Assembly: GCF_013364155.1 (NCBI RefSeq) | Contig: NZ_CP054916.1 | Span: 7,718,001-7,782,000, forward strand | Length of the DNA stretch: 64,000 bases | Reading direction: 5' to 3' | DNA from: Streptomyces sp. NA02950 | GTDB taxonomy: Bacteria > Actinomycetota > Actinomycetes > Streptomycetales > Streptomycetaceae | Shown: piece after piece, positions 1-19,067 of the stretch | Numbering within the stretch: the first letter of the stretch is position 1 | How the letters are laid out: each line of letters starts with the position of its first letter | Position numbers and translations under genes: made by a program | The notes under the pieces: model-generated | Databases searched by the model: none | Seen by the model: only the letters and a program-made list of their open reading frames with translations | What the model was told of the DNA's origin: nothing

Positions 1-772
1 CGACGACGCCGCACAGCAGCCAGTCGATGGTGCGGGCCAACTGCTGGGCGGCGGGGGCGAGGGCGGCAGGCAGGGCGTGGGTGTAACGGATCGTGGCGCC
101 GGAGACGCCGTAGCGCCGGGCGTGCGCCACGTACGGGGAGGCGAGCGCGTCGACCATGCCGGCGCGCACCAACCGGGACAGCGAGCACACCGGGCGGGAC
201 AGCAGGACGAGCACGGGCAGCACGAGCGCGGCCGGGTGGCCGAGCCGGTCGGTGCCGTAGCCCACGGCGGTCGGCGGCAGCCAGTTCAGCCGGAGCGCGA
301 GGACGGTCACCAGCAGACTTCCGAGGGCGAACTCGGGCACCGCGTACACGGCGAGCGTCACCGAGCTGACCAGTCGGTCGACCAGCCGGCCTTCGTACCG
401 TGCGGCCAGCACCCCGAGGCCGAAGCCGACCGGGACGAGCAGCGCCACGGTGAGCGCGGCCAGCAGCAGGGTCGGCCCGAAGCCGTCGGCGATGTACGCG
501 CTGACCGGGCGGCCGGAGGTGAGCGAGGTCCCGAGGTCGCCGTGGAGCAGGCCAACGGCCCAGTCGGCCAGCCGCTCGTGGGCGGGCCGGTCCAGGTGGA
601 GGGCCTCACGGATGGCCGCGATGCGCGCGGGGTCGGGCTGGTCTCCGGCCAGAGCGACCGCGGCATCGCCCGGCAGCGCCTCGGTGAGCGCGAAGACCAG
701 CACCATCACGGCAAGGGTCTGCGCGACGCCGAGCAGCAGCCGCCGGGCGACGAAGGAGCGCAGTCCGCTCAC
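1..772 (-). CDS. ABC transporter permease, DppB/OppB type (3' end outside window)
   Basis: Inner-membrane permease of a peptide/nickel-type ABC importer. It starts at a GTG (772-770) that overlaps the TGA of the upstream binding-protein gene in a GTGA arrangement, so the two are translationally coupled. The translation opens with VSGLRSFVARRLLLGVAQ and a hydrophobic helix, followed by the periplasmic-loop signature LPGDAA typical of DppB. Several more hydrophobic helices follow, then an ABC-binding loop reading YVAHARRYGVSGATIRYTHA. About 257 codons are present and the C terminus lies beyond base 1. The partner DppC-type permease and ATPases would be expected further left. Context, with the lipoprotein at 769-2385, suggests uptake of a metal-bound small peptide. 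Confidence 0.88.
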   Translation of the reverse strand, partial: MSGLRSFVARRLLLGVAQTLAVMVLVFALTEALPGDAAVALAGDQPDPARIAAIREALHLDRPAHERLADWAVGLLHGDLGTSLTSGRPVSAYIADGFGPTLLLAALTVALLVPVGFGLGVLAARYEGRLVDRLVSSVTLAVYAVPEFALGSLLVTVLALRLNWLPPTAVGYGTDRLGHPAALVLPVLVLLSRPVCSLSRLVRAGMVDALASPYVAHARRYGVSGATIRYTHALPAALAPAAQQLARTIDWLLCGVV

Positions 773-2385
773 GCGAGCCACACCTTGTCGAAGCGTGCCC
801 AGTCGAGAGTGTTGGCGGGCGCCTTGGACTCAACTCCCTTGACGTTGCGCGCGGTTCCGATTATCCAGTCGGCGAAGCCCCAGACCAGGAAGCCACCTTC
901 GGAGTACAGGCGGCGCTGCATGCGCTCGTAGACGCCCGCCCGCTCGGCCTTGTCCTTGGTGGACTGGGCCCGCTGGTAGAGCGCGTCGAAGTCCTTGTGG
1001 TGCCACTTGGTGGCATTCGTGGTGGAGTCGGTGAGCAGCCGCTGGGAGATGTGGGCCTCGATGGGCATGGCACCGGAGCGGTAGGAGCACAGGGTGCCGC
1101 CGTCCAGGATGTCGCTCCAGTACGAGTCCTTGCTGCCCATCTTCACGTTGATGGTGACGCCCGCCTTCGCGGCCTGGTCGCGGAAGATGCTCGCGGACTC
1201 GGTGAACCCGGCGGCCACCGCCGAGGTGTCGAGGGTGACCTTCAGCTTCTCGGCGCCGGCCGCCTTCAGCAGGGCGCGGGCCCGGTCGAGGTCCTGCTCG
1301 CGCTGCGGGAGGCTGTCGGCGTAGTACTCGTAGCCCTTGCCGAACAGATCGTTGCCGATCACTCCCGCGCCCGACAGGGCGCCGTCGAGGAGTTCCTTGC
1401 GGTCGGCGATCAGGAAGAACGCCTGGCGCACCCGCTTGTCGTCGAAGGGGGCCCGGTCGGTCTTCATCGCGAACCCCTGCATGTCGCTGCCCCGGAGCCG
1501 GACGATGGTGATCTGCCCCTTGCCCTCGTGGGCGCGGGCGGTGGTGGGGTGGAGTTCGTGGGCGTACTCGACCTGTCCGCCGAGGAGCGCGCCGACCCGG
1601 GCGGACTCCTCGTTGGCGACGACGAATTCGAGCTCGTCGAGGTGCGGGGCGCCGTCCCAGTAGTCCTCGTTGCGGCGGAAGACGGCCGATCGGCCGGGGG
1701 CGAAGGACACGAAGCGGAACGGACCGGAGCCGATCGGCTTCTTGTCGAAGTCGGTGGCGTCCTCCGGCACGATGTACGCGCCGAACGCCGCCAGGATGTT
1801 GGGGAATTCGGCGGTGGGCCGCTTGAGGACGAATTCGATGCCCCGTTCGCCGGTGGCGCGGCTCGCGTCGAGGTCGATGGGTTCCAGGGACGCCTTGGCG
1901 CGGAACGCCTTCTTGGGATCGGCGATCCGGCGGTAGCTGTGGAGCACGTCCTTGGCGGTGACGGGCCGACCGTCGTGGAAGGTGGCCCTGCGGAGGGTGA
2001 CCTGCCACCGGTCCAGGGTCTTGTTCGCCTCCCACTTCTCGGCGAGGCGGGGTTGGGCGGACAGGTCGGAGCCGTAGTCGGCGAGTTTGTCGTAGAGGGC
2101 CTTCGCGCGGGCGGCGTCGGAGAAGAGGTTGGCCAGGTGCGGATCGAGGGTCTCGCTCGCACCGCCGCCGGCGAACGCGGCGCGCAGCCGTCCGCCGCGC
2201 CGGGGGGTGCCGGCGCTTCCGCCCGTTCCCGCGGTGTCGTCGGTGCCGCCGCATCCGGTGAGGGCGAAGGCGCCCAGCGATGCGGCGCCGGCGGCGAGGA
2301 AGCCGCGGCGGCGCAGACCGGGGAAGCGGCGATCGTCCGGCTGATCGCCCATGGAGGGAAGACGGCGGGCGGGTTCGTCATGCAT
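769..2385 (-). CDS. ABC transporter substrate-binding lipoprotein (SBP_bac_5 / oligopeptide-nickel family)
   Basis: A 538-residue extracytoplasmic binding protein for the adjacent DppB-type importer. The N terminus carries three arginines (25-27) before a hydrophobic stretch and a lipobox LTGC with Cys45, so it is likely exported, possibly by Tat, and lipid-anchored. The body matches family 5 binding proteins in length and in features such as KWEANKTLDRWQVTLR and FHDGRPVTAKDV (residues about 125-150). It lies 61 bp after the methyltransferase gene, the only real gap in this operon, and overlaps the permease by four bases. In this family ligands are peptides, nickel or metal-chelator complexes. 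The zinc-island context makes a metallophore complex the likeliest ligand, which is inference. Confidence 0.9.
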   Translation of the reverse strand: MHDEPARRLPSMGDQPDDRRFPGLRRRGFLAAGAASLGAFALTGCGGTDDTAGTGGSAGTPRRGGRLRAAFAGGGASETLDPHLANLFSDAARAKALYDKLADYGSDLSAQPRLAEKWEANKTLDRWQVTLRRATFHDGRPVTAKDVLHSYRRIADPKKAFRAKASLEPIDLDASRATGERGIEFVLKRPTAEFPNILAAFGAYIVPEDATDFDKKPIGSGPFRFVSFAPGRSAVFRRNEDYWDGAPHLDELEFVVANEESARVGALLGGQVEYAHELHPTTARAHEGKGQITIVRLRGSDMQGFAMKTDRAPFDDKRVRQAFFLIADRKELLDGALSGAGVIGNDLFGKGYEYYADSLPQREQDLDRARALLKAAGAEKLKVTLDTSAVAAGFTESASIFRDQAAKAGVTINVKMGSKDSYWSDILDGGTLCSYRSGAMPIEAHISQRLLTDSTTNATKWHHKDFDALYQRAQSTKDKAERAGVYERMQRRLYSEGGFLVWGFADWIIGTARNVKGVESKAPANTLDWARFDKVWLA

Positions 2386-2446
2386 GCGGGTGTCCTCGGG
2401 GTGTGGGAAGGGTGGATGGGATACGGGGCGGGCGTGGGGTGCGGCC

Positions 2447-3271
2447 TCAGGGCGCCGAGGGGACGGGCCCGGTGAGGCGGGCCACTACGTGCAGTCGGTC
2501 GGCGTCGGTCGTACGGCCGGGGGAGTGGCCCTCGCGCCAGGGCGGCTCGGTGCGCGGACCCGGTCCGTCGTGCAGCTCCAGGACGTCGAAGCCGTGGGTG
2601 GCCAGGAGGTGGCGCAGCTCCTGCGGGAAGAGCAGCCGCCACGCGGAGCGCTGTTCCACGGGCGGGGATCCGTCGTCCGTGGTCCATACGCGGGTACGGC
2701 GCAGGAGCTGGGCCGTGCGGTCCACCGTGAGCGTGGTGGTGGACCGGTAGGCGGTGCCCCGCCAGGTGAACTTCGCGACCGTGGGTGCGTCGAGCAGGTC
2801 CGTACGGCCGAGGAAGTAGGCGCCGTTGCGCATCTCCGCGACGAGCAGTCCGCCGGGGACGAGGGCGCGCCGGCAGGACGACAGGAAGCCGTCGAGCTGG
2901 GCGTTGGTGTGGCAGTACAGCAGCGCGCTGTCCAGGCACACCACGGCGTCGGACACGCCCCGGCCCAGGTCGAACGCGTGCAGGTCGGCGCGGACGTACT
3001 CGGGGCCGGGGTGGTGTCCGCGGGCGTGCGCGAGCATCGCCTCGGAGAGGTCGGCCCCGGTCACCTCGCGGCCCGCGCCGTGGAGGTGTGCGGCGTCGCG
3101 GCCGGTGCCGCAGCCCAGATCCAGGACACGCCTTCCGGCATCGTACCGGCGCAGGCAGTCCTCCGTCCATCGGCCGGCGAGCCGCTCCGGGTCGGGAAAC
3201 CTGGCCTCGTACAGCTCGGGGTTGTCGGTGAGCAGATTGTGCACGTCCGCGCCCGCCGTGGTGGTCGTCAT
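2447..3271 (-). CDS. Class I SAM-dependent methyltransferase
   Basis: A 274-residue cytoplasmic methyltransferase. Motif I is clear at residues 49-60 (VLDLGCGTGRDA), followed by an acidic residue at the end of strand 2 (VTGADLSEAM) and a motif-II/III-like stretch around YVRADLHAFDLG. The start ATG (3271-3269) overlaps the stop of the MFS gene in an ATGA, so it is coupled to the exporter. No substrate-defining domain is recognisable. Within an operon holding a ligase, an epimerase and a PLP enzyme, a tailoring N- or O-methylation of the small-molecule product is the simplest reading (inference). Confidence 0.9.
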   Translation of the reverse strand: MTTTTAGADVHNLLTDNPELYEARFPDPERLAGRWTEDCLRRYDAGRRVLDLGCGTGRDAAHLHGAGREVTGADLSEAMLAHARGHHPGPEYVRADLHAFDLGRGVSDAVVCLDSALLYCHTNAQLDGFLSSCRRALVPGGLLVAEMRNGAYFLGRTDLLDAPTVAKFTWRGTAYRSTTTLTVDRTAQLLRRTRVWTTDDGSPPVEQRSAWRLLFPQELRHLLATHGFDVLELHDGPGPRTEPPWREGHSPGRTTDADRLHVVARLTGPVPSAP

Positions 3272-4587
3272 GTCGTCTCCCTCGTCTCCCTCGTCTCCCT
3301 CGCCACGCCGCCTCCGGTGTGGCCGGATGCCGTGGCCGGTGTGGCGGGCCCCTGCGTCGTCGGCAGCGAGCCCAGCCGGTGCAGCCAGGCCACGCCGACC
3401 GCGGAGGCGAGCCCGAACAGCGCGCAGCACACCCAGGGCAGCCAGTTGGCGTCGCTCCGCTCGCCGGCGTCCATGGCCCAGCCGACGACGGTGTTGCCGA
3501 GGGCGGCGGCGATGCCCGAGACCACGTAGAAGATGCCGAAGTAGGTGCCCGTCAGTTCGGGCCGGCCGAAGCTGGGGACGAGTTCCATCACAAACGGCTG
3601 GGCGACCATCACCCCGAGGTAGAGCAGCAGGGCGCCGAGCAGCACGGGCAGGGCGCGCAGTGCCGCGTCGGCGGTGCCGTCGGGGCCGCCGGAGCCGCCC
3701 GCGACCAGCGCGGGCGGCAGGAACGCCAGCGCCATCAGACCGAGCCCCGCGGCGATCCAGCGCGCCCGCGCGCCGCTCAACTTCAGGGTGCTGGTGATGC
3801 GCAGCTGGAGCGCGAGATTGGCGAGGGTGCCGACGAGGAAGACGAGCCCGGCTGCGCCGTCCCAGCCGGTGGCCCGGCGCGCTCCGTCGGGCAGCAGCAG
3901 ATAGAGCTGGTTCTCCAGGGTGAACATGCCGACCATGGCGAGGGCGAATGCCAGGAAGGCGCGGTGGCCGAGCACCTCGCGCCAGTCCGCGAGCACCGTG
4001 CCCTTGCTCGGCTCCACCTCGCGCGCGGGCAGCACCAGGGCTTGCGCCACGGTGAGGACCGCGAAGATTCCGGCGGCGGTGAGGGCCGAGGTGCGGAAGT
4101 CCACCAGGAGCAGCGCGCTGCCGAGCAGTGGACCGATCAACGCCCCCGTCGTGGCGAAAACGTTGAACAGGGCGAACGCCTCGGCCTTGCGCTCTCCCGC
4201 CTCCTGGGCGAGGTAGGCGCGTACGGCCGGGTTGAACAGCGCTCCGGCGAACCCGCTGAGCACGGAGGCGGCGATCAGGACCCAGAGGCTGTCGCCGAGC
4301 GCGAACAGCCCGAATCCGACCGTGCGCAGGGCGCATCCGGCGATGATGACGCCACGGGCGCCGAGCCGGTCGGCGGCCGAGCCGCCGATGATGAACAGAC
4401 CCTGCTGACTCAGGTTGCGCACGCCGAGGACGATGCCGACGACGGCGGCCGACATGCCGAGGTTCTCGTCGAGGTGGGTGGCGAGATAGGGGATGAGCAG
4501 GTAGAAGCCGGTATTGACGCCGAGCTGGTTGACCAGCAGCAGCTGGATCGCGAGCGGGAAGCGACGCGTTTCATGCCACGTCTTCAC
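3268..4587 (-). CDS. MFS transporter, probable metallophore exporter
   Basis: A 439-residue major facilitator superfamily protein with about twelve hydrophobic segments. The loop GGSAADRLGARGVI after helix 2 fits the MFS motif-A position. The start is GTG at 4587, inside the last codons of the epimerase gene (17-base overlap). It ends four bases into the methyltransferase gene. The combination of an MFS exporter beside an Opp/Nik-type ABC importer and small-molecule biosynthetic enzymes parallels opine-metallophore loci, where the CntE MFS protein exports and CntA-F re-imports. Export of the operon product is therefore proposed. The substrate is not proven by sequence. Confidence 0.85.
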   Translation of the reverse strand: MKTWHETRRFPLAIQLLLVNQLGVNTGFYLLIPYLATHLDENLGMSAAVVGIVLGVRNLSQQGLFIIGGSAADRLGARGVIIAGCALRTVGFGLFALGDSLWVLIAASVLSGFAGALFNPAVRAYLAQEAGERKAEAFALFNVFATTGALIGPLLGSALLLVDFRTSALTAAGIFAVLTVAQALVLPAREVEPSKGTVLADWREVLGHRAFLAFALAMVGMFTLENQLYLLLPDGARRATGWDGAAGLVFLVGTLANLALQLRITSTLKLSGARARWIAAGLGLMALAFLPPALVAGGSGGPDGTADAALRALPVLLGALLLYLGVMVAQPFVMELVPSFGRPELTGTYFGIFYVVSGIAAALGNTVVGWAMDAGERSDANWLPWVCCALFGLASAVGVAWLHRLGSLPTTQGPATPATASGHTGGGVARETRETRETT

Positions 4588-5632
4588 GGCTCACCTCCCG
4601 GGGCTGGACTCCGAGGCCGGGAAGGGTGTTCGCGCGGACGAAGCCGTCGGCGCCGCCGATGCCCGACCACGGGTCGCGGGCCAGCAGCAGGTGCCCGTCG
4701 AGGTCGGCCCAGTGGGCGCGGTCGGCGAGGTGGACGGCGGGCGCCAGGCCCAGGCTGCTGGCGGTCAGACAGCCGAGCATCAGCGCGGTGCCGCTGCCCT
4801 CGATCGCCTCGGCGATGCGCAGGGCGGCGTGCACCCCGCCGCACTTGGCGAGCTTGACATTGACGCCCTGGACGCGTCCGGCCAGATGGCGTACGTCCTC
4901 CAGGTCCACGGCGTCCTCGTCGGCGATGACCGGTACGGGGGAGCGCTCGGCCAGGGCCCCCAGCGCGTCCGGACAGCCGGGTGCGAGGGGCTGTTCGACG
5001 GCCTCGACGCCGAGTTCGGCGAACCGTGGCAGCAGGGCCATGGCCTGCGCCACGGTCCAGGCGCCGTTGGGGTCGAGGAGCAGCCGGACGCCGGGTGCCG
5101 CGTCGCGGATGACACGGACGCGTTCCACGTCGTCCTCGGGATCGGGAGTTCCCGCCTTGACCTTGAGGACCTCGAAGCCGCGTGCGGCCAGGCGGCGGGC
5201 CTCGGCCGCGGCACGGCGCGGCGAGGTGATGCCGATGGTGCGGGCGGTGGCGGCGACGGGAGGCTCCGGCGCGCCGAGGAGGCGGTGCACGGGAGTGCCC
5301 GCGCGCTTGCCGACGAGGTCGAGGAGCGCCGCCTCCAGGGCGGCGGTCACGGCCGGGGGAGTGGTGGCACCGGCCAACTCGCCCGCCCGCAGGGCTTCCA
5401 GGGCGCTCTCGGGGTCGCGATGGCGGACGAGATCCGTGCCGACGGCCGCGAGGAGGCGTCGCAGGGTGGCGGCGTCGAGACCGTAGTAGACGCTGGTGAC
5501 CGCCTCGCCGTGGCCGCTGACCCCGTCGTGTTCGACGCTCAGCCATAGCGCGTCGCGGGCGGCCATCGTCGAGCGGGAGATACGCAGAGGCTCGGCGAGT
5601 TGCAGATGGACGGTGCGCTGACTGGCCTTCAC
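4571..5632 (-). CDS. Enolase-superfamily (MLE subgroup) dipeptide-epimerase-like enzyme
   Basis: A 353-residue mandelate racemase/muconate-lactonizing family protein. Catalytic elements are visible: the KxK motif Lys157-Val-Lys159, metal ligands Asp187 (LLLDPNGAW), Glu213 (AVEQP) and Asp238 (VIADED), and the opposite-face Lys260 in VNVKLAKCGG. The C-terminal section MLGCLTASSLGLAPAVHLA is also typical of L-Ala-D/L-Glu-type dipeptide epimerases. Such enzymes invert the alpha carbon of the second residue of a dipeptide. It starts at GTG 5632, overlapping the PLP gene stop (GTGA). Beside an ATP-grasp ligase, it probably sets the stereochemistry of a short peptide product (inference). Confidence 0.87.
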   Translation of the reverse strand: MKASQRTVHLQLAEPLRISRSTMAARDALWLSVEHDGVSGHGEAVTSVYYGLDAATLRRLLAAVGTDLVRHRDPESALEALRAGELAGATTPPAVTAALEAALLDLVGKRAGTPVHRLLGAPEPPVAATARTIGITSPRRAAAEARRLAARGFEVLKVKAGTPDPEDDVERVRVIRDAAPGVRLLLDPNGAWTVAQAMALLPRFAELGVEAVEQPLAPGCPDALGALAERSPVPVIADEDAVDLEDVRHLAGRVQGVNVKLAKCGGVHAALRIAEAIEGSGTALMLGCLTASSLGLAPAVHLADRAHWADLDGHLLLARDPWSGIGGADGFVRANTLPGLGVQPREVSREDVA

Positions 5633-6756
5633 AGGGTGTCTTCCAGGTGGTGGTGGGCGGGGACGGCCTCCAGTGGGGCGGGCCCCAGCAGATCGGGCCG
5701 CAAGGGGTCGGTGACCCTCGTACATCGCGTCCAGCCGGTGGCCTCGGCCGCGCCGGGGTGCGGGATCTCCACGGGACGGGTGGCTGCCGTGGCCGGGTCG
5801 AGGCCGTGGGCGTTGGTGAAGTCGTCGTCGTAGACGGTGCCGAGATAGCGGTGCGGGCCGTCGGGGAAGACGGTGGCCACGGCCGCTCCGGGGTGGACAC
5901 GGGCGGCCCAGGCGGCGACCAGCGCGACCGCACCGGTGCTCCAGCCGCCGCTGACGAAACTCCCCCGGGCGAGCCGACGGCAGCTGTCCACGGCCTCCGC
6001 CGGACCGACCCAGTGGACCTCGTCGAAGGCGTCGTAGGCGACGTTGCGCGGGTGGATGCTGCTGCCCAGGCCGCGCATCACCCGGGGCCGCGCGGGCTGG
6101 CCGAAGATCGTGGAGCCGACGGCGTCGACGCCGAACAGCCGTAGCGCGGGCCAGTGCCGCCGCAGCGGACCGATGATTCCCGCGCTGTGGCCGCCCGTGC
6201 CCACGCTGCACACCAGGATGTCCAGGTGGTCGAGCTGGGCGGCGAGTTCGGCGGCGAGCGAGGCGTAACCGGCGGTGTTGTCGGGGTTGTTGTACTGGTC
6301 GGGCCAGTACGCGCCGGGCAGTTCGGCGAGCAGTTCCCGCAGCCGGGCGAGGCGGGCGGCCTGCCAGCCGCCCCTCTCCGCCGGACGGTCCACCAGCTCC
6401 AGCCGCACTCCGTGGGTGCGCAGCAACTGCCGCATGGACGGCTCCAGTTCGCTGTCGCCGACCAGCACGACGGGATGGCCGAGGGTCTGCCCGGCGAAGG
6501 CGAGTCCGATGCCGAGGGTGCCGGAGGTGGACTCCACCACCGGTGCCCCGGGGCGCAGTTCCCCGCGCTCGCGGGCGCCCAGCAACATCGCAACGGCGGC
6601 CCGCGCCTTCATGCCGCCCGCCGAGAGTCCTTCGAGCTTGGCCCAGAAGCCGGGGTGCGGCCCCGGCAGATCGCAGGTGATGCGGACCACGGGGGTACGG
6701 CCGAGCAGGGCGAGCAACTCCCGGCGGGCGGTGGGCCGGACGGCTGTCGTGGTCAT
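5629..6756 (-). CDS. PLP-dependent cysteine-synthase-family enzyme (SbnA/CysK-like)
   Basis: A 375-residue fold-type II PLP enzyme. The expected Schiff-base lysine is Lys50 in GLSAGGMKARA. The substrate-binding STSGTLG loop (about 77-83), a GTGGHSAG phosphate-binding loop and a conserved QYNNPDN segment are present. Family members catalyse beta-replacement on O-acetyl- or O-phosphoserine. SbnA uses O-phosphoserine and glutamate on the way to 2,3-diaminopropionate for staphyloferrin B, and CysK-type enzymes also occur in EDDS-type chelator clusters. It is coupled by ATGA to the upstream DUF364 gene and by GTGA to the epimerase gene. A role in making a diamino-acid or amino-acid precursor for a metal chelator is plausible. 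True cysteine biosynthesis is less likely in this context. Confidence 0.85.
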   Translation of the reverse strand: MTTTAVRPTARRELLALLGRTPVVRITCDLPGPHPGFWAKLEGLSAGGMKARAAVAMLLGARERGELRPGAPVVESTSGTLGIGLAFAGQTLGHPVVLVGDSELEPSMRQLLRTHGVRLELVDRPAERGGWQAARLARLRELLAELPGAYWPDQYNNPDNTAGYASLAAELAAQLDHLDILVCSVGTGGHSAGIIGPLRRHWPALRLFGVDAVGSTIFGQPARPRVMRGLGSSIHPRNVAYDAFDEVHWVGPAEAVDSCRRLARGSFVSGGWSTGAVALVAAWAARVHPGAAVATVFPDGPHRYLGTVYDDDFTNAHGLDPATAATRPVEIPHPGAAEATGWTRCTRVTDPLRPDLLGPAPLEAVPAHHHLEDTL

Positions 6757-7643
6757 CGGGCACCTCCGGGGCGGTCGGCGCGGTAGTGGTGGACAGTGCC
6801 GGGGCCGCCGTCCAGCCAGAAGAAGGGATACGGTTCGGCGCACACCGCGCTCACCCCGTGCCCCAGGAGCCGGGGCAGTACGGCGCTGCCGGTTTGCGCG
6901 AAGAGCACCAGCCGCTTGCCGTGCCGCAGCACGTGCTCCCGCAGCGGCTCGAAGGTCCCGTTGCCCAGGGTCATTCCGGAGACGAGCAGCGCGTCGCAGC
7001 GGGCGGCCGCGGCGAGCGCGTCGGTGACGACGGGCTCGTCCCACTCCGTCACCCCGCCCTTGAGGTCGCACGGCACATAGCCGTTTCCGCGCGAACGGAG
7101 CGCCTCGAGAAGGGAGTTGACGACGCCGACCACGAGCACCGTCGCCCCCGGCGGCGAGTCGAGCAGCCCGACGACGGCCTCCGCCCGCGCCCGGGACTTC
7201 TCCAGCGACGTCCCGGCGGGGAGGGCGACCGGACGGGCCCCGTGCTCCGGGACGTGCGGAGTGACATGCATCAGGTAGGCGTCGAGTGCGGCCACGCGCA
7301 CCGGGAGCAGCGGATGGTCCAGCAGCGTGGCCACATCGGCGCCGACACACTGCTCCACGGCGCTGTCGGACAGGGAGCCGGGCTCGACCGCGCACGAGCC
7401 GACGGCTCCGGCGAGCCGCAGGCTGAGCACCTCGTTGCGGTAGCCGGTGCCGCGTCCGTCGTGCCGTACGGCCTGCCGGGTGGTGAATGCCACGGCGATC
7501 CGCCGGGTGCGCGGGTCGGGCCCGAGTTCGCCGGCCCGCACACGCGTCACGAGATCGTCGTACGTCCTCACACGGGGAGCGGAAAGGGCCGGGGCGGAGT
7601 CGACGGCGGATATGCCGGAGGTGTCGGAGGCGGCGGCGGTCAT
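6753..7643 (-). CDS. DUF4213/DUF364 (putative heavy-metal chelation) family protein
   Basis: A 296-residue cytoplasmic protein. The N-terminal part (about 30-120) resembles DUF4213. The C-terminal part resembles the Rossmann-like DUF364, with a VLVVGVVNSLLEALRSRG nucleotide-loop-like strand, CDALLVSGMTLGNGTFEPL and a C-terminal FFWLDGG segment. These families are labelled putative heavy-metal chelation in domain databases, and their biochemical activity is not settled. It is coupled to its neighbours by ATGA overlaps on both sides. It could bind or deliver metal, or act as an enzyme on a shared intermediate with the CysK-like protein. I cannot choose between these from sequence. Confidence 0.8.
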   Translation of the reverse strand: MTAAASDTSGISAVDSAPALSAPRVRTYDDLVTRVRAGELGPDPRTRRIAVAFTTRQAVRHDGRGTGYRNEVLSLRLAGAVGSCAVEPGSLSDSAVEQCVGADVATLLDHPLLPVRVAALDAYLMHVTPHVPEHGARPVALPAGTSLEKSRARAEAVVGLLDSPPGATVLVVGVVNSLLEALRSRGNGYVPCDLKGGVTEWDEPVVTDALAAAARCDALLVSGMTLGNGTFEPLREHVLRHGKRLVLFAQTGSAVLPRLLGHGVSAVCAEPYPFFWLDGGPGTVHHYRADRPGGAR

Positions 7644-8896
7644 CGGATCACCAGTCCGGACCGCACCTCGGCGAGCAGCGCCTCGACCCGGCCCCGGGCT
7701 CCGGCCCCCTCCGAGTCCCCGGCCATCACATGCCCGAGGTACTCGTTGTTGCTGCCCGCCGCCTTCACCTGCCTGCCGGGCTCCGCGAGCTGGACCTCCA
7801 GTACGCCGGGAGCGTCCCGGAGCCCCGCGCCGTCCAGCGAGCCGAGCGTGCCCGTGCGCTCCGGCACGAGGAAGCCGATGGCGGCGCTGCGCAGCCCGGT
7901 GTCCGTGCGCCGCAGATCGGGGGCACGCCCCAGGGCCACGTCCACGCAGGCGGCGGCGAGGTCGATGCCGGTGACGTGGCGGACGAGTTCGGTGATGCGG
8001 TTCCCGGCCGGCCGCGGGTTGACCTCGACCACGCGCGGCCCGGCGGAGGTCAGCTTGATCTCGGTGTGCGCCACCACGCCGTCGGTCAGCCCGAGCGCCT
8101 TGAGCGCACCCAGCGCGGTGTGCTCGGCGGACTCCGTGTCGCCGACCGTCAGCGCGGCGGGGAACATATGCCCGGTCTCGATGAACGCGGGCGCCCCGCC
8201 GAGGCTCTTGTCGGTCACGCCCACCACATGGACCGTGCCCCCGTGCGAGACCGTCTCGACGCTCACCTCGGGACCGTCCAGCAGCTCTTCGAGCAGGACC
8301 GCGGGCGTGCGTCGCTGGCCGCGCGCGTTGACCGGGAAGTCGGCCAACGCGCGGCATGCGGCGGCGAGTTGCGCCTCGTCGTCCACACGCCGCACGTACA
8401 TGCCCGCACACAGGTCGACGGGCTTGACGACCAGTGGGTAGCCGATCTCCCGTGCGGCCCTGGCGATGTCGGCCCCTTCCTCGTGCACGGCGAAGCGGGG
8501 CCCGGGCACCCCGGCCTCGGCGAGGACGTGCCGCGTGGCGTCCTTGCGACAGGCGTTCCGCACAGCCTCGGGGGCCGGGCCGGGCAGGCCGAGGTGCCAG
8601 GCGATCCGCGCGACCGTCGGCAGGTAGTAGTCGCAGGACGTGAGCACCCCGTCGAAGCCGAGCACCGCGTGCAGCCGCTCGACCTCCGGCAGCAGCGCCT
8701 CGGTGTCATTGGTGTCGGCAGTGAGCACGTTGCGCGCCCCGAGCAGCGGGTGCGCCGTGCCCTCGGGGGCGGAGCGCAGGTAGTGGTGCAGGTCGCGGGT
8801 GAGGAAGGTGAACTCGTGCCCACTCTCGCGTATCGCCCGTGGCAGCAGTCTGCTCATTGATCCGACCCAGCTCTCTACCACCAACAGATGAGCCAC
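7640..8896 (-). CDS. ATP-grasp ligase, first gene of the putative metallophore operon
   Basis: A 418-residue ATP-grasp carboxylate-amine ligase. Visible elements are Lys158 in IGYPLVVKPVD, a loop at 195-215 (TPAVLLEELLDGPEVSVE), and the metal-binding stretch around Glu279, Glu291 and Asn293 (VVEVNPRPAGN). Such ligases join an acyl-phosphate-activated carboxylate to an amine, often making dipeptides. The start GTG 8896 is preceded by a strong GGGGAG six bases upstream. It is the promoter-proximal gene, 47 bp from a Zur-like box. It probably supplies the peptide bond that the downstream epimerase then acts on (inference). Confidence 0.88.
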   Translation of the reverse strand: MAHLLVVESWVGSMSRLLPRAIRESGHEFTFLTRDLHHYLRSAPEGTAHPLLGARNVLTADTNDTEALLPEVERLHAVLGFDGVLTSCDYYLPTVARIAWHLGLPGPAPEAVRNACRKDATRHVLAEAGVPGPRFAVHEEGADIARAAREIGYPLVVKPVDLCAGMYVRRVDDEAQLAAACRALADFPVNARGQRRTPAVLLEELLDGPEVSVETVSHGGTVHVVGVTDKSLGGAPAFIETGHMFPAALTVGDTESAEHTALGALKALGLTDGVVAHTEIKLTSAGPRVVEVNPRPAGNRITELVRHVTGIDLAAACVDVALGRAPDLRRTDTGLRSAAIGFLVPERTGTLGSLDGAGLRDAPGVLEVQLAEPGRQVKAAGSNNEYLGHVMAGDSEGAGARGRVEALLAEVRSGLVIR

Positions 8897-8942
8897 AGCT
8901 CCCCTTTTCCAGTCGTGTGGGATAACGTGGCGGCCACGCTAT

Positions 8943-8957
8943 CGATAATCGTTTTCA
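8943..8957. promoter_or_regulatory. Candidate Zur box between divergent promoters
   Basis: CGATAATCGTTTTCA, whose reverse complement TGAAAACGATTATCG matches 12 of 15 positions of the Streptomyces Zur-type inverted repeat as I recall it (about TGAAAATGATTTTCA). It sits 47 bp upstream of the ATP-grasp operon start and 40 bp upstream of the divergent hydrolase start, well placed to repress both when zinc is replete. Other boxes of the same shape occur beside znuA and the zinc-free ribosomal genes in this window, which strengthens the call. Confidence 0.65.
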
Positions 8958-8996
8958 TTGTCATCTGACTCCGTGCACACCGAGGAAGAAATCGTT

Positions 8997-10508
8997 GTGA
9001 CCTCACCCACGCACCGCACGGCCCTGCTGTGCGTCCTGGCGGCCGTCGCCGCGACCGCCGCCCCCGCCGCCCCCGCCCAGTCCGCCGCCCGTGTCCCCTC
9101 CGCCGGTTCGGCATCCGCACTCCGCTTCGGCGCCTGCCCCGAATCCGTGCCCGATCCGCCCGCACCGGAGCGCGTCGAATGCGGCCGGCTGAGCGTGCCG
9201 CTTGACGGGAACCGCCCCCGCGGGCCGCGTACCGAGATCGCTGTCTCGCGCGTCCGGGCCTCTGGCACCCCTGCCGAGCGGCGCGGCATTCTGCTGGTCA
9301 ACCCCGGTGGGCCGGGCGGCTCCGGGCTCCCCTACGCGGTCACCAAGCGGGCCAAACTCCCTGTGAGCGTGCGCCGTTCGTACGACGTCATCGGCTTCGA
9401 CCCGCGCGGCGTCGGACGGAGCGCGCCCGTCGACTGCGGCCCGATGGGCGGTCTCTTCGCCACCCCCGGCGCGGACCCCGTGCCCGTCGGTCCGACGGCG
9501 GAGCGGGCCCACCTGGCGTCACTGCGCAACCTGGCCGACGACTGCGCGGCGGGCGCCGGCGACGCACTGCGGTACCTGTCGACGGAGCAGACCGCACGGG
9601 ACATGGACGCGATACGCGCCGCGCTCGGCGAACGGCGGACGAACTTCCTCGGCGTCTCCTACGGCACCTACCTCGGCGCGGCCTACGCCGCCGCCTTCCC
9701 GCACCGCACGGGCCGCATGGTCCTGGACAGCGTCGTAGGTCCCTGGAGCTGGTACGACTTCGATGTGATCCAGAGCCGGGCGCTGCTGCGGCAGCGTGAC
9801 ACCTTCTTCGCCTGGACCGCCGCCCACGCGGACCGCTTCCGCCTGGGCGGCGGCGCGGCGGCCGTGCGCAGGGCCTACCTGCGCGTACGCGACGGACTCA
9901 CCGCAGGCCCCGTGGACGGCTTCGGCCCCGCGGAGTTCGACCGGGCCGTGTACCGCGCCCTGGGCCGCACCGAACGCTGGGCGGACCTCGCGGACGGCCT
10001 GCGCGCCTATCTGCGCGACGGCACTCCCGACGGACTCCGTCCCGACGAGGACTTCACCGGCCCGGACTCACGCAACTACGAAGCCGCCAATCGCATCGTC
10101 AAGTGCGCCGACGGCCCCGGCCCCACGCCCCGGCGGATCGTGGCCGACATCCGCCGCACCCGACGTCTCGACCCCCAGCCGGTCCTCACCGGCATGGAGG
10201 CGTCCACCTGCGCCTACTGGCACCACCACCCCCCGCGCCGCACCCCGCTCGGCAGCCCCGACGCGCCGCCCGCTCTCCTGGTCGCCTCCGCCCACGACCC
10301 CGTCACACCCATCGAGGGCGCGCGCCGGATGCGCCGTCTGCTTCCCGGCTCGCGTCTGGTGACGCTCGACGACGACTACTCGCACGGGGTGTTCGCCAGC
10401 CGGGGCAACGCCTGTGTGGACGACACCACGGCCGCCTACCTCGTCGACGGGGCCGCGCCAACGGCGGATGTGCGCTGTGCGGGGCCTGGCCTGCCCGCGG
10501 TGCCGTGA
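8997..10508 (+). CDS. Secreted alpha/beta hydrolase, tripeptidyl aminopeptidase (TAP-like) family
   Basis: A 503-residue exported serine hydrolase. I chose GTG 8997 because GAGGAAG lies 8 bp upstream and the product then begins with a normal signal peptide (TSPTHRTALLCVLAAVAATA). An upstream TTG at 8958 is in frame but abuts the Zur box. The oxyanion region GGPGGSG and the nucleophile elbow GVSYGTYLG are present, with a late Asp (VASAHDPVTP) and His (YSHGVF) completing the triad and a TAP-like C-terminal domain. Family members cleave tripeptides or amino-acid derivatives from N termini. Its shared promoter region with the operon suggests zinc control and perhaps a role in processing extracellular peptides. 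Confidence 0.88.
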   Translation: MTSPTHRTALLCVLAAVAATAAPAAPAQSAARVPSAGSASALRFGACPESVPDPPAPERVECGRLSVPLDGNRPRGPRTEIAVSRVRASGTPAERRGILLVNPGGPGGSGLPYAVTKRAKLPVSVRRSYDVIGFDPRGVGRSAPVDCGPMGGLFATPGADPVPVGPTAERAHLASLRNLADDCAAGAGDALRYLSTEQTARDMDAIRAALGERRTNFLGVSYGTYLGAAYAAAFPHRTGRMVLDSVVGPWSWYDFDVIQSRALLRQRDTFFAWTAAHADRFRLGGGAAAVRRAYLRVRDGLTAGPVDGFGPAEFDRAVYRALGRTERWADLADGLRAYLRDGTPDGLRPDEDFTGPDSRNYEAANRIVKCADGPGPTPRRIVADIRRTRRLDPQPVLTGMEASTCAYWHHHPPRRTPLGSPDAPPALLVASAHDPVTPIEGARRMRRLLPGSRLVTLDDDYSHGVFASRGNACVDDTTAAYLVDGAAPTADVRCAGPGLPAVP

Positions 10509-10540: not shown

Positions 10541-10636
10541 ATCGACTGGTGTGGCGGGATCCGGGCGGCGCGGCACCGGGTCCGCCGTCCGGCGCTGCCG
10601 CGCGCCCGGCCCACGCAGGACAGGGAGGAACCCTCA

Positions 10637-11181
10637 GTGACACAGACCGCGCACCATGAGTACACCGTGCGCCCCGCGACATCCGACGACGTCGACGGCG
10701 CGCGCCGCGTCATGCTCGACACCTTCTACCAGGAGTTCGGCTACGGATACGTACCCCAGTGGCATCGCGACACCGTGGACATCAAGGGCACCTACCTCGA
10801 CGCCCCCCGGCATCTGCTGCTCGTGGCCGTACACCAGGGCGAGGTGGTCGCCACGACGGGCGTACGGTCCGGCGGCCCCGCCCACCCGCCGCACCCCCTC
10901 TGGCTCGCGGAACGCTACTCGCCGGACACCACCGCACAACTGGTCCGTGTCTATGTCCGCCCCGAACACCGACGTCGCGGACTCGCCCGCACCCTGGTCG
11001 ACGCGGCCTGTGACTTCATCGCGGACACCCCTGGCTACGACCGCGTCTACCTCCACACGAAGTCAACGTCGACGGCGCGGAAGCTTTCTGGCGAAGCCTG
11101 GCCAAGGAGGTCTTCGACGCCCGCACCACCGGCGAACACGGCCCGGGGGTCGCCACGGTGCACTTCGAGATCCCGATGTAA
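10637..11181 (+). pseudogene. GNAT N-acetyltransferase with a frameshift near its C terminus
   Basis: Translation from GTG 10637 (GGGAGGA upstream) gives a typical GNAT: TVRPATSDDVDGARR at the N terminus and the acetyl-CoA loop VRVYVRPEHRRRGLARTLV. At about 11055 the reading frame breaks after GYDRVYLHT. The continuation HEVNVDGAEAFWRSLAKEVF... lies in another frame and ends at TAA 11179-11181 with VATVHFEIPM. Restoring one base gives a smooth 181-residue protein. Without it the product acquires an unrelated Arg/Pro-rich tail. This is either a recent inactivation or a sequencing error. Confidence 0.75.
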
Positions 11182-11842: not shown

Positions 11843-12721
11843 TCAGGTGGGTTGGGGGGTCTTCCGGGCTCCCCACCGTCGGGTGCGGTAGGTGCCCGCC
11901 AGTCGGCAGACGATGTAGATGGCGAACGAGATGGTCGTGACGTAGGGGCTGATGGGGATGGAGCTGCCGAGGGCGAGCAGGATGCCGCCCTCGATCGAGG
12001 CGACGGCGAAGACCACACTGAGCAGCGGGAGCAGCACGGGCGACGCGGTGATGCGGGCGGCCGCCGCGGCGGGGGTGACGACGAGGGTGAGGACCAGCAG
12101 CGCGCCGACGATCTGCACCGACAAGGCGACGGCGAGTCCGAGCGCGGTCATGAAGGCGAGGGAGAGTGCGCGCACCGGTACCCCGCGGGCCTGTGCGACG
12201 TCCGGATCGGCGCTGGCGAAGGTCAGTGGCCGCCACATGACCGCCAGGGCGACGAGAACCACGGCCGAGGTGCCGAGCAGCCAGGACATCTGAGGGGTGT
12301 CGACGGCGACGATCTGCCCGGTGAGCAGGCCGAATTTGTTGGCCGCTCGGCCTTTGTAGAGGGCGAGGAAGAGCACGCCCAGGCCCAGGCCGAACGGCAT
12401 GATGATGCCGATCACCGAGTTGCGGTCCCGGGCGCGTGCGCCCAGGACCCCGATCGTGCCGGCCGCGATGAGCGAGCCGGCGATCGAGCCCGCCACGATG
12501 TTCGTCTCCAGCAGCAGTGCTGCCGACGCGCCCGCGAAGGACAGCTCGCTGATGCCGTGTACCGCGAAGGGCAGGTCGCGCATGATGACGAAGACCCCGG
12601 CCAGGCCGCCGATCAGACCGAGTGCGGCGCCGGCGACGAGGGAGTTGCGGACCAGGGTCAGGAGTTCGCCGTAGTTGTCGAAGTTGAAGATCTGGTGCCA
12701 GATCCCGTCGGCGAGCGTCAT
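11843..12721 (-). CDS. znuB: Zinc ABC transporter permease
   Basis: A 292-residue ABC-3 family membrane protein with eight to nine hydrophobic helices. It includes the family hallmarks VFVIMRDLPFAVHGISELSFAG near the N terminus and LVVTPAAAAARITASP in the C-terminal half. It forms the transmembrane channel for zinc with ZnuA and ZnuC. The start ATG overlaps the stop of znuC in an ATGA, so the gene is last in znuA-znuC-znuB. Manganese or iron specificity is possible for the family, but the surrounding Zur genes argue for zinc. Confidence 0.92.
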   Translation of the reverse strand: MTLADGIWHQIFNFDNYGELLTLVRNSLVAGAALGLIGGLAGVFVIMRDLPFAVHGISELSFAGASAALLLETNIVAGSIAGSLIAAGTIGVLGARARDRNSVIGIIMPFGLGLGVLFLALYKGRAANKFGLLTGQIVAVDTPQMSWLLGTSAVVLVALAVMWRPLTFASADPDVAQARGVPVRALSLAFMTALGLAVALSVQIVGALLVLTLVVTPAAAAARITASPVLLPLLSVVFAVASIEGGILLALGSSIPISPYVTTISFAIYIVCRLAGTYRTRRWGARKTPQPT

Positions 12722-13626
12722 GGGCGGACTCCGTCGGTTCCGTGTGCTGCGGAGATTTCGCGAGGGTGGTGGGGCGGTGCGGGTGCGATGGGTTCGTCGG
12801 GTGCTCCGACGACCACGACGCGACCGTGGACGCGGACGACGTCGACCCGCGTGCCGTACAGCTGGGACAGGGACGCGGAGGTCAGGACCTTCTCCGGGGT
12901 TCCGATGCGGTAGCCGCCCCGCGCCAGGTACAGCACCCGGTCCACCAGTCCGAGCACGGGATTGATCTCGTGGGTGACGAAGACCACCGCCGTGCCGTGG
13001 GAGCGGCGCCGGGCGTCCACCAGTTCGGTGACGGCCCGCTGGTGGTGGAGGTCGAGAGAGAGCAGCGGCTCGTCGCAGAGCAGTATCCGGGGGTCAGTGG
13101 CCAGGGCCTGTCCGATGCGGATACGCTGCCGCTCGCCTCCGGACAGCAGACCGACGGGGACATTCGCGTAGGCCGATGCCCCGACCGACTCGAGGATCTC
13201 ATCCACGCGGCGGCGGGCGGCGGTCGGGCGCAGCCGCGGTCCGAACCGGTGTCCGTCGATGCCGAAGCGCACCAGATCGCGGGCGCGCAGCATCGCGTGT
13301 GTGGACAGCGCCGCCTGCTGGGGGACGTAGCCGATGTGACGGCCGGCGTAGCGCGGAGGCCGGCCGAGGACGGTCAGCGTTCCGGCGGACAGCGGCTGCA
13401 GGCCCAGCAGGGCCCGTACGAGGCTGGACTTGCCCGACCCGTTCGGCCCCAGAACGGCCAGGAACTCGCCTGGCCGTACGTCGAGTTCGAGGTCACGCCA
13501 CAGCGTGCGCTCGCCGTAGGACAGAGTGGCGCCGCGCAGGCTGATCAGCGGGGCGCCGCCGCTGCCGCTGGGTTCGGCCTGGTCCTGGCGGGCCCGGGGC
13601 AGCAATGCCATGGCCGGTCGTCTCAC
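12718..13626 (-). CDS. znuC: Zinc ABC transporter ATP-binding protein
   Basis: A 302-residue ABC ATPase. Walker A GPNGSGKSS, Q-loop region YVPQQAALS, signature LLSGGERQR, Walker B ILLCDEPLLSLD and the switch His in FVTHEIN are all present. It energises ZnuB. Two starts are possible: GTG 13626, which overlaps the znuA stop as GTGA like most genes here, or ATG 13611. I favour the coupled GTG. The C-terminal tail after residue about 235 (VVVVGAPDEPIAPAPPHHP) is low-complexity. Confidence 0.92.
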   Translation of the reverse strand: MRRPAMALLPRARQDQAEPSGSGGAPLISLRGATLSYGERTLWRDLELDVRPGEFLAVLGPNGSGKSSLVRALLGLQPLSAGTLTVLGRPPRYAGRHIGYVPQQAALSTHAMLRARDLVRFGIDGHRFGPRLRPTAARRRVDEILESVGASAYANVPVGLLSGGERQRIRIGQALATDPRILLCDEPLLSLDLHHQRAVTELVDARRRSHGTAVVFVTHEINPVLGLVDRVLYLARGGYRIGTPEKVLTSASLSQLYGTRVDVVRVHGRVVVVGAPDEPIAPAPPHHPREISAAHGTDGVRP

Positions 13627-14709: not shown

Positions 14710-15153
14710 CTATGGCTGCGACGCGTCCCGGTCCGGTGCCGGCCGACACCGGTCGCAGATCCCGGTGAGCTCGACGGTGTGCTCGACCTCGGCGAATCCT
14801 GTCGCCACGGCCACGTCGTCCGCCCAGCGCTCGACGGGGTCCGCTTCGACGGCGAGGCTGAGGCCGCAACCGCGGCAGACGACGTAGTGGCGGTGGCCGT
14901 CGTCGGGGCGGGGGCGGTAGAGCCGCTCACCGGTCCTGTCCCGTACGACGTCGACTTTCCCGGCATGTTCCAGCTTGCGGAGCGTGCGGTACACCGTGGT
15001 GAGTCCCACGGTGGTGCCGTCTGCCGCGAGTGCCGCGTGCAACGCCCTCGCGGAGACGAAGTCGGGGTGGTCGTCCAGCGCTCGCAGTACGGCGCTCCGC
15101 TGCCAGGTCGACCGCCATGGCGGCGTCAACTCCCCGGCCGCCGAACCGTGCAT
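14710..15153 (-). CDS. zur: Zinc uptake regulator, Fur family
   Basis: A 147-residue Fur-family repressor. The start ATG 15153 is preceded by GGGAGG at normal spacing. An in-frame ATG at 15195 lacks this. The winged-helix recognition region reads TTVYRTLRKLEHAGKV. Structural zinc ligands Cys93, Cys96, Cys133 and Cys136 form two CxxC pairs, and regulatory-site candidates include His87, His89 and His125. Sitting directly upstream of znuA and beside zinc-free ribosomal genes, it is Zur rather than Fur or Nur. It is expected to bind the TGAAAATGA-type boxes listed here when zinc is sufficient. Confidence 0.9.
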   Translation of the reverse strand: MHGSAAGELTPPWRSTWQRSAVLRALDDHPDFVSARALHAALAADGTTVGLTTVYRTLRKLEHAGKVDVVRDRTGERLYRPRPDDGHRHYVVCRGCGLSLAVEADPVERWADDVAVATGFAEVEHTVELTGICDRCRPAPDRDASQP

Positions 15154-15496
15154 GACGCTCGCCTCCCGCTGCACAGGTATTGATCTGTTGCGCATGCTAG
15201 TTGAACATGACATCCATGACCAGAATCGTAAGCGGACGGGGTGCGAGACCCGGAGGGTGCCGTCCGCGGCCCGGGAAGTGATGTACAGGCCGGGATCGGG
15301 GGTGGCCGGCTGGGCGGAGGGGCAGCCCGCGAAACGCGGGTTGGCGCCCTCGGCGGGGCGAGATTGAGGATCACTTGCCCAGGCGGCGGTCACGGGGCGA
15401 CCCGCGCCCACAATGAGGTGGATCGTTGCGGGAGGGGGCGAACTCGCCGCCCCGCACGCCATACCGCTCGGAGTCCGCCGGGTGCCGCGCCGTTGG
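15154..15496. other. Intergenic leader between the COG0523 gene and zur
   Basis: No gene-like frame is convincing in these 343 bases. A small perfect stem CCCGCG-AAA-CGCGGG (15326-15340) could act as a terminator or processing site after the COG0523 gene. The AT-richer stretch around 15180-15230 probably holds the zur promoter. Confidence 0.4.
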
Positions 15497-16717
15497 TCAG
15501 AGCTGGGCTACCGGCACAGCCTCGTGCGGGCTGTGCTCGTGGTCGCAGGTCTCGTCGAGGCCGTAGGTCTCCCAGGTGGGGAAGGGGTCTTCCCAGGTCG
15601 CCCAGTGGGGTGTGCCCCGCGCATACTCGTCGTCGGTGAGCAGGCACGCGGACAGGGACGTGTGCAGGGCGGCGGGGCGCAGTCCGGTGCCGATGAAGAC
15701 GAGTTCCTGGCCGCGGTCGGTGTTCTCCCCGGATTCGCTTCGGCTGTCGTGCGCTCCGGACGGCTCGAACCGGGCGACGGCACCTGCCTGTGACCACAGC
15801 CCGGTCACGCGCGGGCGGGTGGCCAACCAGAAGAAGCCCTTGGAGCGCAGGACGCTGCCGTAGGTCCCGCTGTCCAGCTCTGTGGCGACGAAGTCCCACA
15901 GCCGCGCGGGGTGGAACGGCCGGGTAGCGCGGAAGACGGTGCTGGAGATGCCGTATTCCTCGGTCTCCGGTACATGGTCGCCGTTGAGCTCCATGACCCA
16001 GCCGGGTGCTTGCTGGGCGCGGTCGAGGTCGAAGCGGCCGGTCCCGAGCACGTCCGCCGGTTCCACCCGGCCGTGGGTGGCGGGCACGAGACGGGCGGCC
16101 GGGTTGAGCCGGGACAGTGCCGCCGCCAGACGTTCGGCGGTCTCGGGGGTGACCAGGTCGAGCTTGTTGAGGACGATGACGTCGGCGAACTCGACCTGGT
16201 CCATCAGGAGATCGCTGACCGTGCGCTCGTCGTCCTCGTACTGGTCGAGGCCCCGTTCGACGAGCTCCTCGCCGCCTGCCAGCTCCGGCAGGAAGTTCGC
16301 GGCGTCGACGACGGTGACCATGGTGTCGAGGCGTGCGACCTCGCCCAGCGTGGCGCCGTCGTCGCGCGGAAGCGCGAACGTCGCGGCGACAGGCATCGGT
16401 TCCGAGATGCCGCTGGACTCGATGAGGAGGTAGTCGAACCGTCCCTCCCCGGCGAGCCGGCCCACCTCCTCCAGCAGGTCGTCCCGCAGGGTGCAGCAGA
16501 TGCAGCCGTTGACCATCTCGACCAGGCGCTCTTCGGTGCGGGAGAGGGCGGCGTCGCCGTCGCGGACGAGGGCGGCGTCGATGTTCACCTCACTCATGTC
16601 GTTGACGATGACCGCGACGCGCAGCCCGTCGCGGTTGGTGAGGAGATGGTTGAGGAGCGTGGTCTTGCCGGATCCCAGGAACCCCGACAGGACCGTCACC
16701 GGAAGCTGGTCTGCCAT
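15497..16717 (-). CDS. COG0523 (CobW/ZNG1-type) GTPase, zinc metallochaperone
   Basis: A 406-residue G3E GTPase. It has the P-loop GFLGSGKTT (12-20), the metal-binding CxCC motif Cys72-Ile-Cys74-Cys75 in [13 protein letters not shown], the NKLD guanine motif, and a C-terminal CobW_C domain with an acidic, histidine-containing tail (CDHEHSPHE). Zur-controlled members transfer zinc to client proteins during starvation. It lies 7 bp after the zinc-free L32 gene and is presumably co-transcribed from the Zur-controlled promoter at about 16950. Confidence 0.92.
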
Positions 16718-16724
16718 CGGATGG

Positions 16725-16895
16725 TCAGCCCTCGGGGCGCAGCAGGCCGCGCCGGTAGGCGGGGACGAGATTGCGTGGCACCCGGTGTTCGCGGCCGTCG
16801 ATGGTGACCGTCACCAGCTCCGGCGTGCTCGCCTTCCACTGCGCGCGGCGGTGGCGGGTGTTGCTCCGGGACATCTTCCGCTTGGGCACGGCCAT
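16725..16895 (-). CDS. rpmF: 50S ribosomal protein L32, zinc-free (C-) paralogue
   Basis: A 56-residue L32 beginning [17 protein letters not shown]. Normal zinc-dependent L32 has a C-terminal Cys4 ribbon. Here there is no cysteine at all, and the C-terminal half reads [13 protein letters not shown]. Replacement of Cys+ L32 by this form would free zinc from ribosomes. It is the first gene of a rpmF-COG0523 unit reading away from the Zur-like box at 16944-16964. Confidence 0.92.
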
Positions 16896-16943
16896 GACGT
16901 GCGGGTCCTTTCCTGTTCGGTAAGTGGTCACCTTCACTGTATA

Positions 16944-16964
16944 TGAAAATGAGTACCGTTTCCA
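16944..16964. promoter_or_regulatory. Candidate Zur box(es), divergent rpmF / COG0523-like promoter
   Basis: TGAAAATGA begins this 21-bp inverted repeat, which ends in TTTCCA. It can be read as two overlapping 15-bp sites (16944-16958 and 16950-16964) with 10 and 9 matches to the Zur-type repeat. It lies 49 bp upstream of rpmF and about 117 bp upstream of the plus-strand COG0523-like gene. Confidence 0.6.
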
Positions 16965-17080
16965 TGTAGGCTCGGGGTGACACCGTGACGTCGTCACCCA
17001 GGAGGAGATGTGCCGCTGGTACTGCTGCGGGCACGCAGATCCGCCCACGCCCTCGTGACCGCCATCGCGCAGGCGGCGGA

Positions 17081-18307: not shown

Positions 18308-18440
18308 CACAGCGTCGGGAGGGCCTGTCCGGCCACGGCGATGACGGCCTCGCCGCCGCGTAGGGCAGTGTGGGGCCGTATCGCCGGATCCCGTGCCGGG
18401 GGATAGGTGGCCGGGTCGACCGCAGGCGGCCCGGCGATGG

Positions 18441-18982: not shown

Positions 18983-19031
18983 GGGTTCTCCTTCTCGTAC
19001 GGGGTTGGGACGGCAGCACCGTATCAGTTAA

Positions 19032-19046
19032 TGAAAATGAAAATCG
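19032..19046. promoter_or_regulatory. Candidate Zur box, divergent rpmB / rpmG promoter
   Basis: TGAAAATGAAAATCG matches 11 of 15 positions of the Zur-type repeat. It lies 50 bp upstream of rpmB and only 21 bp upstream of rpmG, so Zur binding would block both directions. Confidence 0.65.
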
Positions 19047-19067
19047 ATCCTATGTATGCTGTCGTCC

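Follow-up and report, generated by a model that had tools for sequence, protein, structure and literature searches.

A conserved ten-gene Streptomyces operon behind a Zur-like box, predicted to make, export and re-import a zinc chelator

We examined a minus-strand operon located at positions 1-8957 of a 64,000-nucleotide stretch of the 9.77 Mb genome of Streptomyces sp. NA02950 (contig NZ_CP054916.1, positions 7,718,001 to 7,782,000; hereafter the window). An earlier sequence-only reading of this DNA had proposed that the locus makes, exports and re-imports a small peptide chelator of zinc. Our analysis indicates that this is probably a Zur-repressed zincophore operon with these three functions, a reading that is well supported by regulation and anatomy. 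The Zur-type element, the pump, the importer and the signatures of a ligase and an epimerase, on which the proposal had been built, were all recovered, whereas the adjacency of znu and zur genes did not hold as a general feature.

The gene coordinates and reading frames of the operon were rechecked in the window. All eight minus-strand genes of the sequence-only reading were present, seven of them complete and one cut by the left window edge, coupled behind the Zur-like box. From gene 1 onwards they encode an ATP-grasp ligase (7640..8896; assigned by Pfam and structure relatives), a DUF364 protein (6753..7643; Pfam and fold), a pyridoxal phosphate (PLP) enzyme of SbnA/CysK type (5629..6756; NCBIfam and structure relatives), an enolase-superfamily enzyme resembling dipeptide epimerases (4571..5632; Pfam, structure relatives and orthologues), an MFS transporter presumed to be the exporter (3268..4587; Pfam and NCBIfam), a class I S-adenosylmethionine methyltransferase (2447..3271; Pfam and structure relatives), a family-5 (DppA/NikA/OppA) substrate-binding lipoprotein (SBP, 769..2385; Pfam, NCBIfam and structure relatives) and the edge-cut DppB permease (1..781; whole gene L006:18819-19781). 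The genes had been described as overlapping, which is true of six of the seven junctions: all five between the ATP-grasp and methyltransferase genes overlap, four by 4 bases and that of epimerase and MFS by 17, and SBP and DppB share 13 bases, while the methyltransferase and SBP genes are separated by the sole gap, of 61 bp. The DppB gene extends 181 bases beyond the left window edge and is followed in the left flank, where missing importer genes had been expected, by DppC (L006:17878-18822) and a DppD-DppF fusion (about L006:16250-17881). The importer is thus complete, and the operon comprises ten genes.

To follow the operon in other genomes we scanned 84,980 species genomes with the ATP-grasp protein, which yielded 257 stretches with a relative, and kept the best 80 as named loci; 79 of these are titled Streptomyces and one (L073) 'Actinobacteria bacterium'. 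The ten genes occur in the same order in 75 of these best 80 loci, and contig ends truncate four of the remaining five. The MFS gene is retained in 77 loci, the importer in 75. Further loci were fetched that carry the same operon type (type A) or two other types, B and C, which share with it the DUF364 and SbnA-like genes and are described below.

The Zur-like operator (8940..8960, minus strand) has its 15-bp core at 8943-8957, within a 17-bp spacer between a -35-like ATGACA (8959-8964) and a -10-like TAGCGT (8936-8941), the hexamers being picked by eye. This corresponds to the 15-bp, 7-1-7 layout over a promoter that we used as the mark of the Streptomyces Zur regulon, and both Zur binding to the box and a zinc response are predicted. 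The core matches 9 of the 11 fixed positions of the published S. coelicolor motif tGaNNatSatNNtCa (PMC5472717). Such a match is weak by itself, as sites at this level numbered 14 in the 64 kb vs 2.7 in mononucleotide shuffles. With one mismatch allowed, the consensus gave 118 genome sites vs 22 for a reversed control, a set that excludes the window box with its two mismatches. The published consensus was rejected as sole evidence for this reason, and conservation and a matrix were used instead.

In the upstream regions of the orthologues we found a common sequence, TGAAAATGATTATCG, which was in register at at least 11 of 15 positions in 110 of 111 regions and present in all 111, since the last region, too short for the register script, nevertheless shows the box. 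The 111 regions comprise the window, the 80 named loci and 30 unnamed ones, and include the window a second time (L087) and some strains in duplicate. The information content over these regions was 1.79 bits per position in the box, in comparison to 0.17 upstream and 0.49 downstream of it. The matrix was trained on sites upstream of type B and C operons only, because circularity had to be avoided. Its 16 training sites came from 19 heads of such operons, with two heads inside operons omitted (L181 8361 and L182 7286) and the L123 site being identical to that of L121. The top site of this matrix in the whole window was 8940-8960 (30.8 bits), followed by 14636, 19029, 16941, 14677 and 16947, which lie upstream of znuA or between open reading frames (ORFs) of CobW-like and ribosomal type. 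All 111 type A regions reached at least 22.5 bits and all 12 type A heads from other stretches at least 19.7, while 1.5% of random windows from the fetched loci, some of them holding true sites, scored 18 bits or more. In a set of 31 heads picked by hand, from which the type B locus L186 was omitted because its stretch ends before gene 1, at least 9 of the 11 consensus positions were found in 25 (2/2 of type B, 16/17 of type C, the rest of type A), in comparison to 7% of random 350-bp windows. The box at 8943-8957, as first claimed from the letters, is thus far beyond chance by conservation and by an independently trained matrix.

The ATP-grasp protein scored above the cut-offs of both PF13535 (62.3 bits) and the C-terminal PF18603 (LAL_C2, 50.2 bits), and its closest solved relative was the L-amino acid ligase BL00235 (3vot, E 5e-31). 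It combines the ATP-grasp and LAL_C2 domains expected of a putative L-amino acid ligase. Membership of the DUF364 protein in PF04016 was borne out by the Pfam gathering score and by fold comparison (Dhaf4260, 3l5o). For the PLP enzyme, the top NCBIfam model was TIGR03945 (SbnA), with 236.9 bits vs a cut-off of 349.95, which places it outside that family as defined. Its closest solved structure was SbnA itself (5d87), in line with the CysK-like enzyme first proposed, and the next after the SbnA entries was CmnB, a capreomycin enzyme. In the epimerase-like protein the KxK, D, E, D, K and DLDG positions were conserved at at least 98% in 78 orthologues. It aligned to 3iji and 4gfi, its solved relatives include the dipeptide epimerase 3jva, and the NCBI names of near relatives agree. 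The protein carries the KxK / D-E-D / K set and the DxD motif, which we take to be the catalytic signature of dipeptide epimerases in the enolase superfamily, and is a putative dipeptide epimerase. The peptide-ligase and dipeptide-epimerase signatures support this part of the sequence-only reading.

The MFS transporter was closest to MdtH among NCBIfam models, under the cut-off. For the methyltransferase, 8 of the 19 solved relatives listed bear names of N-methyl- or N,N-dimethyltransferases. The SBP scored 150 bits with a nickel-family model, its best in NCBIfam (cut-off 600), and 62 bits with the CntA model (cut-off 800), and its matches include AgaA. A Pfam scan of the operon detected no nicotianamine-synthase-like gene (CntL), opine dehydrogenase (CntM), nonribosomal peptide synthetase (NRPS), SbnB-like gene, NRPS-independent siderophore (NIS) synthetase or hydrolase, in agreement with the earlier statement that opine and NRPS genes are lacking. 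In the whole genome, PF03059 (nicotianamine synthase) had no match in a search that was positive in only 1 of 14 control genomes, and PF10100 had none here nor in any control genome.

By gene content, DUF364 and an SbnA-like PLP enzyme form the common core of three Zur-box-bearing actinomycete operon types. Type A was represented by ten fetched loci of the family, eight of them with transporters, and by L180 and L183 from two other families, where the fetched stretch ends in or after DppB. In type B (L119, L122, L186) the importer genes (SBP-DppB-DppC-DppDF) are accompanied by a second methyltransferase, a second enzyme of SbnA type, DUF364 and MFS; L119 and L186 also carry a dioxygenase of PhyH type, and L119 has zur downstream. 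Type C comprises 12 loci (L117, L118, L120, L121, L123, L177, L178, L179, L181, L182, L184, L185), all with DUF364 and the second SbnA-like enzyme, 11 with a GHMP kinase, ten with FecB-FecCD-FecE and six with the methyltransferase. The kinase at L117 7546-8505 matched several kinases weakly, including homoserine kinase, and may make a phospho-amino-acid substrate. Types B and C have different accompanying enzymes, and type C also a different class of importer, while DUF364, the PLP enzyme and the Zur-like box are constant, and an importer accompanies 3/3 type B and 10/12 type C loci. Class-wide, 30 strong DUF364 matches were found in 394 genomes, and an SbnA-like gene lay within a short flank of 29, that of the 30th (L182) being farther off. 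Five further matches were weak and set aside, and the weak relatives L124, L125 and L126 were dropped, as none of the other operon genes was present.

The constant PLP enzyme, DUF364 and Zur-like box, together with the usual importer, suggest a shared chelator core to which type A would add ligation and epimerisation. We regard it as an evenly balanced question whether DUF364 and the SbnA-like enzyme mark an unrecognised class of non-NRPS, non-opine actinomycete metallophores, with at least three architectures, all under Zur, in which DUF364 would perform a new chelator-forming step. Our estimate had been slightly higher and was lowered because a type B-like pump was seen in only 2 of the 12 type C loci. 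Of 199 sampled Streptomyces genomes, 86 had a DUF364 match, strong in 83 and only weak in three. The strong matches had at least 66% identity (type A) in 51 genomes and 36-46% (B/C-like) in 33, one genome having both vs 8.5 expected (hypergeometric P 0.0003), a statistic that ignores relatedness and assigns types by DUF364 identity alone. Such rare co-occurrence is as alternative systems would show.

The operon had also been said to adjoin znuACB-zur, which is only loosely true in the window. The minus-strand genes znuB (11843-12721), znuC (12718-13626) and znuA (13623 to about 14600; Zur-like boxes upstream of it at 14636 and 14677) lie to the left of a second Fur-family, Zur-like regulator (14710..15183, minus strand, start approximate), but the operon is separated from znuB by a gene for an exported hydrolase and by a broken GNAT gene. 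The regulator is 49.6% identical to the Fur-family gene of the other znu-like locus of the genome, L205 (G000:C1:6335500-6343500), which has matches to znuA at 26% and to znuC at 41% and a Zur-like site at L205:4876. The window block is a second zinc-uptake set of the genome, which has two Zur-like regulators. To the right of the zur-like gene lies a ZigA-like CobW protein (540 bits, cut-off 600); in all, 15497-20646 contains three ORFs resembling CobW/ZigA and one for an S14-like ribosomal protein (part named by eye), and Zur-like sites were found there at 16941 and 19029. The surroundings look like an accessory zinc-starvation island. On the other side, left of the operon, there is a CobW-like fragment (47% identity over 22% of the query) and a transposase-like ORF and unrelated genes, the latter two read by eye.

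The hydrolase (8958-10508), exported-looking, of alpha/beta type and with a TAP-like domain, is divergent from the operon across the Zur-like box. A relative of more than 60% identity occurs in 37 of the 80 named loci, so it is linked but not core. The GNAT acetyltransferase gene (10610-11178) has its frame broken near 11065 and a weak Zur-like site at 10523. In a further 20 loci (L173, L168 and L167 among them, some contig-cut) a relative is found no more than about 2.5 kb from the ATP-grasp gene, and the acetyltransferase may be an accessory of the operon system.

In the zincophore reading, Zur would leave the box in the promoter spacer when zinc is scarce, and the ten coupled genes would be expressed. 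The SbnA-like enzyme could join an activated serine and an amine into a beta-amino-substituted alanine (2,3-diaminopropionate-like) block, which DUF364 would modify in a way shared by all members of the family. The ATP-grasp ligase would couple this block to a second amino acid; the dipeptide epimerase would invert one residue, and the methyltransferase would methylate an amine or a carboxylate. The MFS protein is expected to export the chelator, and the lipoprotein-DppBC-DppDF importer to take back its zinc complex. Computation shows the gene families, their order and conservation, the conserved Zur-like operator and the catalytic motifs, and we infer Zur binding, zinc as the ligand, the direction of transport, every reaction and the product.

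Several points weigh against this reading. The building block is a guess, because the PLP enzyme does not reach the SbnA cut-off. No zur, znuA or znuB match was found in the 80 named loci (flanks of up to 10 kb, shorter at contig ends); their znuC matches, at no more than 34% identity, are probably other ATPases, and a close neighbour of ZigA/CobW type (71%) occurs in L036 alone. Of the type A loci that we looked at, L173 and the window are the only ones with zur near the operon. We rejected zur/znu adjacency as general support on these grounds; it would fail under the refuting condition set in the sequence-only reading, but the Zur-like box travels with the operon. Duplicates among the 111 regions and the relatedness ignored in the co-occurrence statistic also count here, as does L044, where the operon ends after the epimerase inside a long contig. 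A consensus match of at least 9 of 11 positions was seen in only 7 of the 12 further type A heads. L172 and L174, which hold only the ATP-grasp, DUF364, PLP enzyme and epimerase genes and no transporters or methyltransferase, rank near the bottom in box strength (20.2 bits; 7 and 8 of 11), and L167, where the operon is full, scores even lower with the matrix (19.7 bits). The quartet of L172 and L174 is possibly decayed or repurposed. The scarcity of type B-like pumps in type C belongs to the same side, other pumps not having been searched for.

The same anatomy would fit a chelator secreted under zinc starvation mainly against competitors, by metalloenzyme inhibition or zinc withholding, with Dpp for self-uptake or recycling. 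Zur control suits feeding and competition alike, and the place of CmnB next to SbnA among the relatives of the PLP enzyme agrees with such a role; however, we consider it unlikely, as the in-operon importer is kept in 75 of the 80 loci and an importer also accompanies most type B and type C loci. The cargo of a merely Zur-repressed metallophore could instead be another metal (nickel, cobalt, copper or iron), as might be read from the nickel-family match of the SBP, far under its cut-off, and from the FecBCD-class importers of type C. The box is nevertheless of Zur type, the window neighbours are zinc-type genes and an iron-box string matched at most 12 of 19 positions across the 31 heads, its chance level not being computed, which makes this possibility quite improbable.

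Peptide use commonly involves Dpp importers and dipeptide epimerases, and the AgaA match of the SBP would also suit an operon for the catabolism or salvage of peptides or opines. In it, the epimerase and PLP enzyme would degrade an imported dipeptide, and lack of zinc would induce the genes because this compound brings zinc with it or stands in for a zinc enzyme. The ATP-grasp ligase, methyltransferase and MFS pump have no evident breakdown role and the Pfam scan showed no hydrolase inside the operon, so we find this explanation very hard to sustain. Least credible of all is an intracellular zinc buffer or low-molecular-weight cofactor instead of a secreted chelator: L172 and L174, with four enzymes and no transporters, would agree with it, but the MFS gene and the importer are retained in nearly all named loci.

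If the zincophore reading is true, the operon would represent a common zinc-scavenging system of Streptomyces, given the strong DUF364 matches in 83 of 199 sampled genomes, with a product yet to be assigned. DUF364, a family of unknown function, would gain a testable pathway, and small chelators would have a further biosynthetic route besides NRPS, NIS and opine chemistry. It would also illustrate that a metal-responsive operator can expose a cryptic cluster, and such chelators would be relevant to soil zinc nutrition and metallo-enzyme inhibition. A literature search, largely abstract-level and with subscription papers and preprints mostly outside it, returned no description of this gene set, and the wider family of such operons is apparently undescribed; the family name DUF364 or DUF4213 occurs in seven papers.

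Staphylococcal opine systems combine an Opp/Nik-class importer with an MFS exporter, and the EDDS cluster contains a CysK-like enzyme. That cluster is not known to have an ATP-grasp, dipeptide epimerase or DUF364 gene, the aes proteins not having been compared. The opine zincophores (staphylopine, pseudopaline, bacillopaline; Cnt) are defined by CntL/CntM and resemble the operon in their use under metal starvation and in having few biosynthetic genes, with those for import and export close by (PMC7438024). The operon differs from them in that the Pfam scan found no nicotianamine-synthase-like or opine-dehydrogenase gene in it, and its SBP is far from the CntA model. Staphyloferrin B is alike in that SbnA is the closest named relative of the PLP enzyme, and different in the score below the SbnA cut-off and in its SbnB-like and NIS synthetase genes, none of which was seen in the operon. 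Zur-controlled metallophores of actinomycetes are known in coelibactin, a predicted zincophore of S. coelicolor, and in the zincophore [S,S]-EDDS of Amycolatopsis japonicum (PMC6103462); coelibactin is a nonribosomal peptide, and no NRPS gene was seen in the operon. Regulatory elements are likely needed to separate siderophores from zincophores (PMC12971057, the main text of which does not mention ATP-grasp or EDDS). The DUF364 protein matches Dhaf4260 in family and fold, and a chelation role for DUF364 has been proposed from genome context (PMC2954201), while a Serratia DUF364 gene raises prodigiosin when expressed, its protein being termed uncharacterized (PMC4046660). In the available parts of this literature the family has no assigned reaction and no link to an SbnA-like enzyme or a Zur box is made; the linkage seen here fits the chelation idea of PMC2954201 and would sharpen it. 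Taken together, the locus is probably a zincophore-type operon whose enzyme set sets it apart from the zinc scavengers compared, in which that set is absent.
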